Positions 35,951-41,052 of a stretch of DNA of 64,000 nt are shown here, one piece after another. This stretch comes from an uncultured Aquimarina sp. (GTDB taxonomy: Bacteria; Bacteroidota; Bacteroidia; Flavobacteriales; Flavobacteriaceae): assembly GCF_947500065.1 (NCBI RefSeq), contig NZ_CANMQT010000004.1, positions 372,001 to 436,000 of the forward strand. The letters are read 5' to 3'. Position numbers and translations under genes: made by a program. A model generated the notes under the pieces. The model ran no database searches, was not told the origin of the DNA, and was given only the letters and a program-made list of their open reading frames with translations. Positions within the stretch are counted from its first letter, which is position 1. Every line of letters begins with the position of its first letter.

Positions 35951-37804
35951 ATGAAACTTATTCAATATCTGTTTTTAGTATACATAAGTATCTTTTTCTC
36001 CTGTAAACAGGAAGTACAACTGGATTATACACTTCCAGAAACCAGTGAAGCTGCACCCGTGAAAATTGTAGGTGACAGTATTCATGTTAATGGAGATTTA
36101 GGAAATTTTACTCTCGAAAAAAAAATCTCTAATATAAGTGAGAACCTCCATCTAATTACTTTTAAATTTTCTTCTAAAATCCCATCAGAATTACCTCCAA
36201 TAGCTATAAAATTCAATTTCCCATCTGTTGATATCAATGGATATTGGAATCCAAAAATATCAATGGACAAGGTTAATTATTACTATAGTGGTATCACTTC
36301 AAAAGCATCCAAAAATGCACCTATACTTTCTTTTTATAATAATGCACTACAAAACAGAATCACCTTCGCACTATCCGATGCACTAAATCAATCAGAAATT
36401 ATAAGTTACCTCAAAGAAGAAGATGTTCATTTTTATCCTGAAATCAAATTGTTCCAAGAAAAAATGCCAAAAACTACTAGTTATGAAGTTACACTTCGGA
36501 TTGACACTCGTAATTTACCATATCATAAAAGTATTACTGATGTAGCTGATTGGTGGGCAAACCATCCGGACTATACACCGATGAAAGTACCGGAAAATGC
36601 GAAACGTCCTATGTACTCTACCTGGTATAGTTATCATCAAAATATCACAGCAGAAGAAATTATTGCAGAATGCAAAATTGCGAAATCACTAGGTTGTGAG
36701 GCGGTAATTATAGATGATGGTTGGCAAACAAATGATGGTAATCGAGGGTATGCATATACAGGCGACTGGAATCCAGATCGCATCCCTGATATGAAAGGTT
36801 TTGTAGAAGCAGTACATAAAGAAGGAATGCAATTCCTTCTTTGGTATTCATTACCTTTTATGGGGGAAAAAGCTAAAAATCATACACGTTTTAAAGGAAA
36901 GTATCTTAGATATTGGGATTCACAAGGAACTTACGTATTAGATCCTCGTTACCCAGAAATAAGAAAACATATCGTAGATACGTATATCAAGGCTATGCAA
37001 GATTGGAATCTGGATGGTTTTAAGCTTGACTTTATTGGATGGTTCACTACTACCAAAGAGACAAAATTAACCAAAGAAGATGGTAGAGACTATGCAAGTG
37101 TAAATGAAGCTACAGATGCTCTAATGACTGAGATCACTACAAAACTTACTGAATTAAAACCCGATATTCTCATAGAATTTCGGCAACCATATATAGGACC
37201 TCTGATGCGCAAATATGGTAATATGTTTAGAGGTGTTGACGCTCCAAATAATGCTGTCGCCAATAGAGTGGAAACTACCAACTTACGCATTATGGCAAAA
37301 AACACCGCCGTTCATAGTGATATGTTTATTTGGCGAAACGAAGAGCCGGTTGAAAAAGCTGCGCTTCAAATATTAAATATTTTATATAGTGTCCCCCAAC
37401 TATCATTAAAGCTTACAGAAATCTCTGAGGAGCATTTAGATATGATTAGATATTGGTTGGATTACTGGAATACACATCGTGATATTTTAGTAAATGGAGA
37501 ATTTATCCCATCAAATCCTGGTGCAAATTACCCTATACTTACTGCTATTAATAATCATCATCAAATTACAACATTGTATGAAGATATCGTTATAAGACCC
37601 GAAACTTCTATAAACCGTCTGGATATTATTAATGCTAAATCAAGTAAAAAAGTAGTACTCCTATTGGATGAAGAATTCAAAGCTAAACTAACAATAGGTG
37701 ATTGCCGAGGAAATACTATTATAGAACAAGACATCAAATTATCAAAAGGCCTCCATAATTTTGATGTACCTCCATCAGGAATCTTAAAAATTCAGGTCAA
37801 ATAA
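35951..37804 (+). CDS. Glycoside hydrolase, alpha-galactosidase/melibiase-like (GH36-type)
   Basis: STWYSYHQNI, AVIIDDGWQTNDG, MQFLLWYSLPFMG, DGFKLDFIGWF. Confidence 0.85.
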   Translation: MKLIQYLFLVYISIFFSCKQEVQLDYTLPETSEAAPVKIVGDSIHVNGDLGNFTLEKKISNISENLHLITFKFSSKIPSELPPIAIKFNFPSVDINGYWNPKISMDKVNYYYSGITSKASKNAPILSFYNNALQNRITFALSDALNQSEIISYLKEEDVHFYPEIKLFQEKMPKTTSYEVTLRIDTRNLPYHKSITDVADWWANHPDYTPMKVPENAKRPMYSTWYSYHQNITAEEIIAECKIAKSLGCEAVIIDDGWQTNDGNRGYAYTGDWNPDRIPDMKGFVEAVHKEGMQFLLWYSLPFMGEKAKNHTRFKGKYLRYWDSQGTYVLDPRYPEIRKHIVDTYIKAMQDWNLDGFKLDFIGWFTTTKETKLTKEDGRDYASVNEATDALMTEITTKLTELKPDILIEFRQPYIGPLMRKYGNMFRGVDAPNNAVANRVETTNLRIMAKNTAVHSDMFIWRNEEPVEKAALQILNILYSVPQLSLKLTEISEEHLDMIRYWLDYWNTHRDILVNGEFIPSNPGANYPILTAINNHHQITTLYEDIVIRPETSINRLDIINAKSSKKVVLLLDEEFKAKLTIGDCRGNTIIEQDIKLSKGLHNFDVPPSGILKIQVK

Positions 37805-37833
37805 TGGTTTTAAGGAAATTGTTTTAAAAATAT

Positions 37834-37861
37834 AAAAGCGTTCTTTTTACAGAACGCTTTT
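37834..37861. terminator. Terminator hairpin between alpha-galactosidase gene and repeat element A
   Basis: AAAAGCGTTCT-TTTTAC-AGAACGCTTTT; usable in both directions. Confidence 0.75.
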
Positions 37862-38044
37862 ATCAATTTTAGGGCAAATTACGTACTCTCTTTAGCTTCC
37901 AGATTTGGGGTCTATCAGACTAATGTCCTCACACCTAATGAGCCCTGACGTATTCCAAACTAAAATTTTAAATCCATACCGTCATACAGTTTAAAATGTT
38001 AATTCTGGTCATACACCAAGTGTTTTTAAGTTGAAGTAAAGATA
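37834..38044 (-). ncRNA. Candidate small RNA, repeat copy A
   Basis: Minus strand: TATCTTTA -7-like box (38037-38044), conserved ATGACGRTATGGATTTRAAATTTTARTTTGGAA and GTGTGAGGACATTAGTCT...AGACCCCAAATCT...CTAAAGAGAGTACGTAATTT, ending in a terminator hairpin; parallels copy B. Confidence 0.5.
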
Positions 38045-38212
38045 CTATAAATAAATTGTTAATTCAAAATTTTTAACGACTAAAAACATTAATATTCGAT
38101 GAAATACACAAAAACCAATGATTTAGGCTAGTTTACAGAATAAAAAAAAAGAATCTATTATTGCATTTTTGTGTATTAATTCCCGGATACGGTATAAAAA
38201 TCAGAATGGAGT

Positions 38213-38429
38213 ATAAAAAAAAGCGACCTTATACAAGATCGCTTTCTATTATCGGGTAAATTACGTACTCTCTTTAGTTTTTAGATTTGGGGTCTTTAGA
38301 CTAATGTCCTCACACTTAATTTATCCCAATGTGCATTCCAAATTAAAATTTCAAATCCATATCGTCATATTTCTTGATACTTTAATTCGTATAATACACA
38401 TCGTGTATATTTTACTTGTTATAAAGATA
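38213..38429 (-). ncRNA. Candidate small RNA, repeat copy B
   Basis: Same order as copy A with -7-like TATCTTTA (38422-38429); terminator AAAGCGATCTTGTATAAGGTCGCTTTTTTTT has a better stem (G-U) and T tract on minus strand. Confidence 0.55.
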
Positions 38430-38534: not shown

Positions 38535-39944
38535 CTAATCGAAATCAAAATATTTCGAACTTCCTAGATATTTTTTGATGATGTTATTATACTCTTTAGA
38601 TATCCTTAATGCTAAGGTTCCTTCTATTGTATATAGTGATTCTGCATCCTTATATCCGCTCTTAAGCATTTTTTCTAAGTAAAAAAGTGCCGTTTCATTA
38701 TCCCCATCCGTGACACATAGAGAGATAATATTTCTATATGATTCAAAATCATTTTTATCAACTATTGTACTGAGAATATTTAAAAATATTTTTCTATCTA
38801 TTTCTTTTTTATCCTTAGGTACCTCTTTTTTATATACAAATAAAGTGTTCTTTAGGAAACCTTTTATCCGTAGCACCATATCGCTAGCATATTTCTCTTC
38901 ATTTTTTGCTAGTTTATCAAGCTCTTCCATTCTGTACTGCCACCAACCTAAGTTATTATATTGTCTTAGATCTATATCTTCTTCTAATGATAAAATAAAA
39001 GTTTGGCGTAAAAATATCTCTTGATTATAATATTTGGATCTTAACCTCTTTCTTTTTTTGTATGCATCAATCTTTCTTATTTCTTTCTGTTCTTCTTTAA
39101 GTATATCCACATCAAAAAACAAATCATACTTACTTCTCATTCTAGTTAACTTATCATAAGCTCGTAAATATTCTTTTTTACTTTTTAATAGTTTAACTTC
39201 CTTATGATCCTTTTCGTAGCGATTGGCAATCCAGATAGAATCTTTTGGTATACTACCTTTTATCATAGCCTCCATTGTAAAATATGGTAATGCTTGATCT
39301 ACAACCTCTTCTGGTGGAAATTCTTCTTTTCCATCATATACATAAACATCAGAAGCTACACCCTTTCTTTTTAAATATTTATGAGTATTTAAAAAGTCTC
39401 TGTATCTGAAATTTTTATCTCCAACCATTCCTATATAGGAGAGATTCTTATCAGTATTCAACTTCTGATTGTAATTACCTATAGCTACTACACCATTAAG
39501 TTGTTTGTATAACAGTGGCAATGAAGTATTAAGAATAGCATCTTCTCCAGCTCCAAAAACATACATCCTTTTATCTTGAATAGGAAAAAGAGAAATAATA
39601 TGTTTCATGAAAAACAGGACATAGTTTGATTTCTCCTTGACACTTAGTTTTTCAGCATAATTAGATACTACTATTACATATCCCAATTCTTCTGCTGATT
39701 TACTAAAAAGATGCGTTAAGGAATTCATATTTCCTGTGCTATCAAATCCAAAAAGTATAGGCCACGCATTATTTAGATCAAAGGATTTTGGCAAGTAAAT
39801 ACTATAAACTCCTTTACTAGAAGGCACCGTAAGAGAATCTACCACAACCCCTTTTTTTAGCTTTAATTCGCTTTGACTATAAGAATATGTTACGAAACAA
39901 AAAAATGCACAAAAAAGAATAGTTTTAATAAAATACGGTTTCAT
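38535..39944 (-). CDS. Secreted alpha/beta-hydrolase-like protein lacking recognisable catalytic residues
   Basis: Aligns by eye to 44931-46118 (VVDSLTVPSSKGVYSIYLPKSFD.., YDGKEEFPPEEVVDQALPYFTMEAMIKG) but GFSGGS is replaced by GAGEDA. Confidence 0.6.
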   Translation of the reverse strand: MKPYFIKTILFCAFFCFVTYSYSQSELKLKKGVVVDSLTVPSSKGVYSIYLPKSFDLNNAWPILFGFDSTGNMNSLTHLFSKSAEELGYVIVVSNYAEKLSVKEKSNYVLFFMKHIISLFPIQDKRMYVFGAGEDAILNTSLPLLYKQLNGVVAIGNYNQKLNTDKNLSYIGMVGDKNFRYRDFLNTHKYLKRKGVASDVYVYDGKEEFPPEEVVDQALPYFTMEAMIKGSIPKDSIWIANRYEKDHKEVKLLKSKKEYLRAYDKLTRMRSKYDLFFDVDILKEEQKEIRKIDAYKKRKRLRSKYYNQEIFLRQTFILSLEEDIDLRQYNNLGWWQYRMEELDKLAKNEEKYASDMVLRIKGFLKNTLFVYKKEVPKDKKEIDRKIFLNILSTIVDKNDFESYRNIISLCVTDGDNETALFYLEKMLKSGYKDAESLYTIEGTLALRISKEYNNIIKKYLGSSKYFDFD

Positions 39945-40896: not shown

Positions 40897-40983
40897 CATA
40901 AAAAAACGCTCAGAGTTTCACTCGAGCGTTTTTCTTATCTTTTTCCCGTACTATCTTTAGTTTTTAACCTAATGTCCTCACAC
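40897..40983 (-). ncRNA. Partial copy C of the repeated small-RNA-like element
   Basis: Minus strand GTGTGAGGACATTAGGTTAAAAACTAAAGATAGTACG followed by terminator AACGCTCGAGTGAAACTCTGAGCGTTTTTTT. Confidence 0.45.
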
Positions 40984-41052
40984 AAGATCTTGATAAATTC
41001 TATACACTTTAATAATATCAAATCTTATGCCAAAATCCAGGAAATTACTATT

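Follow-up and report, generated by a model that had tools for sequence, protein, structure and literature searches.

A predicted family of structured small RNAs with two promoter classes in Aquimarina and other Flavobacteriaceae

Two long copies with promoter and terminator anatomy

In the 64,000-nt stretch of Aquimarina DNA analysed here (the window), two similar elements lie one after the other in an intergenic region. This arrangement raises a simple question: do the two copies represent a chance repeat, the ends of a mobile element or an already known RNA, or are they, as the initial annotation had proposed, members of a new small-RNA (sRNA) family? The features of the two copies, A and B, are as follows.

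37832..38031 (-): copy A of the long sRNA; transcript predicted at ~200 nt with an inferred start, based on the -7-like box, the terminator and homologues in the genus
38037..38044 (-): -7-like promoter box TATCTTTA of copy A; from sequence, conserved across the 87-copy alignment
37947..38017 (-): 5' hairpin of copy A with the cap (U)GACG(R); from the fold, helices 1 and 2
37883..37934 (-): core module of copy A, GUGU [GAGGACA] UUAG ... CUAA [AGAGA] GUAC, with the apical loop AGACCCCAAAUCU
37832..37863 (-): terminator of copy A, a hairpin formed by the perfect 13-bp inverted repeat I7
38215..38416 (-): copy B of the long sRNA; transcript predicted at ~200 nt with a putative start
38422..38429 (-): -7-like promoter box TATCTTTA of copy B; from sequence, conserved in B-type copies
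38265..38315 (-): core module of copy B; from alignment and covariation
38215..38245 (-): terminator hairpin of copy B, with eight Ts and one G-U pair; from sequence and fold

A and B each contain all the blocks named in the initial annotation, in the order given there and on the minus strand. The spacing of ~380 nt that it reported agrees with direct repeats of 72, 51 and 23 nt (75-96% identity), which recur at 381-383 nt start to start, and its distance from the conserved block to the -7-like box was likewise recovered: the GTGTGAGG blocks start at 37934 (A) and 38315 (B), 102 and 106 nt downstream of the boxes, respectively. A TTG is found ~20 nt upstream of the box of copy A. Farther upstream, ~45 nt from the -7 box, GTTTTTTATCG is conserved in A-type copies (near window position 38090 in copy A) and is absent from the B-type copies of the alignment; it is possibly an upstream promoter element or a regulator site. 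The terminators, described earlier as unrelated in sequence, do vary freely in relatives, but in A and B both stems open with AAAGCG.TCT. When the folds were compared with shuffled sequences, z-scores of -4.4 (A) and -5.2 (B) were obtained, and none of 200 shuffles was as good in either case.

Copy A was matched in 54 of 69 Aquimarina genomes (E<=0.01), including 53 of the 61 of good quality and usually in one to three copies, and the A/B repeat is therefore not due to chance. Strong matches in the genome itself are confined to A and B.

A third, short copy behind a sigma-54 promoter

The genus was also searched with the pattern TGAGGACATTRG-N2-32-CTRAAGADAGT, whose reversed control gave zero matches. 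Beside A and B, this search revealed a compact version of the element in most Aquimarina genomes; the corresponding match in the window (40980-40950, minus strand) belongs to a short copy, C, located ~2.6 kb from A/B and thus outside the coordinates covered by the initial annotation, which had overlooked this sigma-54-type member as well as the invariant internal-loop core and the family-wide spread described below.

40900..41007 (-): short sRNA C, predicted length ~108 nt; from the model-free pattern match, covariance model R1 and the fold
41017..41032 (-): sigma-54 promoter of sRNA C, TGGCAT-AAGAT-TTGAT; consensus score 10/11
40945..40986 (-): core module of sRNA C, CUUGUGU [GAGGACA] UUAG ... 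CUAA [AGAUA] GUACGGG; from covariation
40899..40930 (-): terminator hairpin of sRNA C; from sequence and fold

Model R1, built on the short form, gives C a score of 72.6 bits, with C itself included in the training set. The fold of C has a z-score of -3.4 against shuffles, and the minimum free energy fold of C alone does not give the comparative structure. Upstream of C, TTTTGGCATAAGATTTGAT forms a canonical sigma-54 -24/-12 promoter, and rpoN is present in the genome (PF04552 match).

Is this promoter a property of C or of the short form in general? Among exact motif instances, it was present in 39 of 39 short copies and in 0 of 84 long ones, and all instances inspected in the genus were explained by one of the two forms, each of which is directly followed by a terminator. 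For the model hits, promoters, characterised by TGGCAY-N5-TTG at fixed spacing, were scored against the textbook sigma-54 consensus. A score of at least 9/11 was reached by 47 of the 48 copies whose apical loop measures <=13 nt and by none of the 66 copies with longer loops, compared with 2.3% of random segments from the same loci. Because the copies share ancestry, they do not count as independent trials, although several genera agree.

Fixed genomic place

The three family loci of the genome all lie within ~3.2 kb. Across the genus, the place of the long copies is conserved, between a 469-aa open reading frame (ORF) and a DJ-1/PfpI gene (38 and 35 of 58 loci, respectively, some of which overlap or stand for the same genomes). 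The ORF itself (window 38535-39944), which has no Pfam match, separates the short from the long sRNA genes in most genomes of the genus, with 30-76% identity. In relatives, the PfpI gene usually follows the long sRNA directly; in the window, a GH36/melibiase-like gene (35951-37804) stands between it and copy A and was apparently inserted in this lineage.

The similar copies in tandem might recall the ends of a transposon or a MITE, but so few and clustered loci, the synteny fixed across the genus, and the covarying stems with their promoter and terminator anatomy contradict a mobile or repetitive element, to which we assign a negligible probability. No transposon-end match was found, and a plasmid search gave no match either.

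C is flanked by a sodium:alanine symporter gene on one side and an MscS gene on the other. The latter, which is MscS-like, lies downstream of C and its terminator in the window and shares the strand of C. This would fit the short form acting in cis as the leader of mscS, as a riboswitch or attenuator, with A and B as stray copies. However, many Aquimarina short copies have no adjacent MscS gene, the gene past the terminator is convergent (alkB-like) in most other genera, and the element possesses its own sigma-54 promoter and a strong terminator. With neighbours convergent or varying and no conserved co-directional downstream gene, a riboswitch of mscS was rejected on synteny, and a leader function appears very improbable.

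Covariation and the shared internal loop

Does the conservation reflect an RNA structure? For the long forms (46 representative copies), the comparative structure comprises 47 pairs, with 93.7% of cells paired versus 27-48% when the partners were slid, and shows two-sided changes at 14 pairs; the observed values were reached in 0 of 500 shuffles. The short forms have two-sided changes at 7 pairs, with 96.4% of cells paired. Over all 121 copies, 148 two-sided cells were counted versus 52.5 after shuffling, in an alignment that was fitted to the model and leans towards it. Covariation is thus strong and above both the shuffled and the slid controls.

The 5' hairpin of the long forms bears a conserved GACG cap (UGACGA) on a covarying stem, in which helices 1 and 2 of copy A show two-sided changes at 11 pairs. 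The ACAC/GTGT hairpin noted earlier is locally possible, but the comparative data favour another partner for its GTGT arm, namely the far side of this long 5' hairpin; in the resulting helix 1, 93.9% of cells are paired and 3 pairs show two-sided changes. The second stem, GGG..AATTA-GUGU / GUAC-TAATT..CCC, is built around the internal loop GAGGACA/AGAGA, above which a short upper stem, UUAG/CUAA, carries a small AGA(CCCCAAA)UCU loop. As the upper stem is nearly unvaried among the long forms, its support comes through the short forms. The apical CCCCAAA is conserved in long copies and has no visible partner in cis. In the default RNAalifold consensus, the 5' GGG was paired with the apical CCC; this solution was dropped since in two copies (L090_392 and L118_3245) the 5' GGG and the 3' CCC are altered together, which favours the outer stem. 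A second subfamily of long forms (L040, L037, L080, L112, L038, L050 and L055) has UUGG/CUGA as its upper stem and a different 5' hairpin in which the UGACGA loop is retained.

The module common to long and short forms can be described as GAGNANA/AGRNA: the named positions of the internal loop are near-invariant, and specific other positions vary freely. The lower stem occurs as CUUGUGU/GUACAAG, CUUGCGU/GUGCAAG or CCCGCAC/GUGCGGG. The short copies of Aquimarina keep the internal loop invariant beneath a variable cap (GGGA, AAA, triloops). A kink-turn reading of this loop is not favoured, as a position of the 3' strand varies between G, U and C.

Another question is whether the structure belongs to an RNA that is already known. 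At the gathering threshold, no Rfam 15 family, including the Flavo-1 motif, matched the window or 20 homologous loci, and the sub-threshold matches were weak and mostly concerned terminators. A long imperfect hairpin of ~200 nt, intergenic and duplicated, might suggest a divergent 6S RNA that binds RNA polymerase, and 6S-Flavo RNA (RF01685) is likewise a flavobacterial stem-loop RNA of ~100-200 nt. The genome, however, has its 6S-Flavo elsewhere (G000:C18:36569-36690; 101.9 bits, above the cut-off), neither RF01685 nor RF00013 matches at the locus, and the conserved core here is a small internal loop. Identity with 6S RNA is thus contradicted, and we give it next to no credence.

Spread in the family and a pseudoknot in distant copies

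How far does the family extend? Model R1 detected the short form in 14 genera among 400 genomes of Flavobacteriaceae, and a broader model, R2, in 22, a few of them weak or doubtful, leaving about 20. Homologues in related genomes are found throughout Aquimarina and in ~20 genera. No genera were added outside Flavobacteriaceae among 298 genomes drawn from the order, and a heavily sampled genus (g148, possibly Flavobacterium) had no match among the genomes listed; such absences are soft, as the many-genome searches use stricter filters. A third nhmmer iteration strayed into conserved coding sequence, and these matches were filtered out.

R2 does not model the promoter. Nevertheless, the sigma-54 element was found in 9 of 12 newly inspected matches that were not in its training set; the exceptions were L221, L225 and L228, the last of which is probably a false match. 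The module is retained without a recognisable sigma-54 promoter in L204, L221 (genus g125) and L225. Most of the distant copies share a common context, consisting of an S1/P1 nuclease gene, the sRNA, a convergent alkB-like gene and an AraC-type regulator. Genus g81 has both forms, the short with and the long without the sigma-54 promoter; in genera other than Aquimarina and g81, usually no long partner was found. In genus g117, the short form occurs twice in one genome at different places (L193 and G188:C3:497772-497849).

The apical loops of 22 distant short copies show complementarity with a stretch before the terminator, and the pairing changes between copies (ACCC/GGGU, ACCA/UGGU, AUCC/GGAU, GCCU/AGGC, UGCCCA/UGGGCA, UACCUC/GAGGUG and UAUACCA/UGGUAUA). 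When own pairs were compared with swapped ones, the observed mean was reached in 52 of 20000 permutations; against shuffled tails, the observed value was 11.55 and the maximum over 500 trials 9.93. Added to the structure, the pseudoknot shows two-sided changes at 3 of its 4 pairs. It is also retained in L221, the homologue from genus g125. In Aquimarina copies, no such partner was seen by eye.

These data bear on the possibility that the RNAs act by base pairing only. In that case, the internal loop would be a structural or stability element, mRNAs would be bound by the C-rich loop in long forms or by the ACCC loop in short forms from other genera, and C would be a sigma-54-controlled sibling with other targets. 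The conserved CCCCAAA of the long copies and the C-rich loops in most of the distant short copies speak for such a role. In other genera, however, the C-rich loop is engaged in the cis pseudoknot, and in Aquimarina short copies the caps vary around an invariant internal loop, so that a seed is not where constraint is strongest. We therefore regard base pairing alone as rather unlikely.

Could the short and long RNAs pair with each other? Some genomes make this tempting, with a G-rich cap complementary to a C-rich loop (UUUGGGG/CCCCGAA). A kissing contact of C, through its G-rich cap, with the C-rich loop of A/B was nevertheless not supported: own pairs scored 10.99 versus 11.09 for swapped ones, i.e. 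short-long apical-loop complementarity is no better within than between genomes.

Discussion

The homologues, the covariation, the absence of an Rfam match and the fixed genomic place support the proposal of the initial annotation that the element is a new small-RNA family. No description of it was found in the open literature; as judged from sequence, the family is an undescribed one of putative trans-acting small RNAs of a known kind. We consider it probable that its members are structured sRNAs with two promoter classes and a module read by a protein. The internal loop, and not the apical loop, is invariant across the promoter classes, which makes recognition of this loop by a protein, or by some other specific ligand, the simplest inference.

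According to this proposal, the locus would encode three structured trans-acting sRNAs of one family. A and B (~200 nt) would be transcribed from housekeeping-type Bacteroidota promoters, and C (~108 nt) from the sigma-54 promoter, so that it would be made only when an enhancer-binding activator fires. An RNA-binding protein would recognise the two-strand internal loop GAGNANA/AGRNA, and the free C-rich loop CCCCAAA of A/B would be a likely pairing seed for target mRNAs, with AGACCCCAAAUC as the candidate target-pairing sequence. C would offer the protein site but, in Aquimarina, without the C-rich loop. Once induced, it might compete for the protein and thereby alter what becomes of A and B, in the manner of GlmY acting on GlmZ. 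We put forward this decoy step tentatively, as an outcome that is possible but not the expected one. It could hold only in Aquimarina and genus g81, since elsewhere the C-rich loop of the short RNA is in the pseudoknot and a long partner is usually not found.

Protein-sponge sRNAs of the CsrB/CsrC and CrcZ type are known, in which several RNAs carry a common protein-binding motif, and CrcZ is driven by sigma-54. The family described here similarly has several RNAs with one common, putative protein-binding motif and a sigma-54 promoter as in CrcZ, but this motif is a single structured internal loop per RNA, in contrast to the many single-stranded repeats of those sRNAs.

A closer parallel may be GlmY/GlmZ, a homologous pair in which GlmZ is constitutive and a common structured stem serves as the protein site (PMC7073468, PMC6075780); GlmY is sigma-54-controlled, lacks the pairing site of GlmZ and sequesters RapZ (PMC7073468). 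Here, too, homologous sRNAs include one of sigma-54 type without the putative pairing loop. Unlike GlmY/GlmZ of Enterobacteriaceae, to which Rfam gives no match here, the three genes are clustered at one locus and have a different internal loop. Because the RNA-binding C-terminal domain of RapZ (PF22740) is absent from the genome (the control was positive in E. coli), RapZ as a partner and the GlmY/GlmZ-RapZ system itself are ruled out. An independently evolved GlmY/GlmZ-like circuit in Bacteroidota, in which a sigma-54-inducible decoy and constitutive regulator RNAs would vie for a new protein reading the GAGNANA/AGRNA loop, is conceivable, but we regard it as doubtful.

In the same family of bacteria, Rfp36 of Flavobacterium psychrophilum is a sigma-54-controlled putative regulatory RNA, included in a sigma-54 regulon of protein quality control, envelope stress and gliding functions (PMC9723704). 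Set beside it by description alone, the short form resembles Rfp36 as an independent RNA behind a sigma-54 promoter (PMC9723704).

In flavobacteria, sRNAs acting in trans and their partner proteins are poorly known. The invariant internal loop could be used as bait for a protein, and the homologous RNAs offer a built-in comparison between housekeeping and sigma-54 promoters. Moreover, the cis pseudoknot, kept in most genera and not seen in Aquimarina, constitutes a natural experiment. If the proposed scheme is true, a GlmY/GlmZ-like circuit would sit in a phylum whose sRNA partner proteins are little known.
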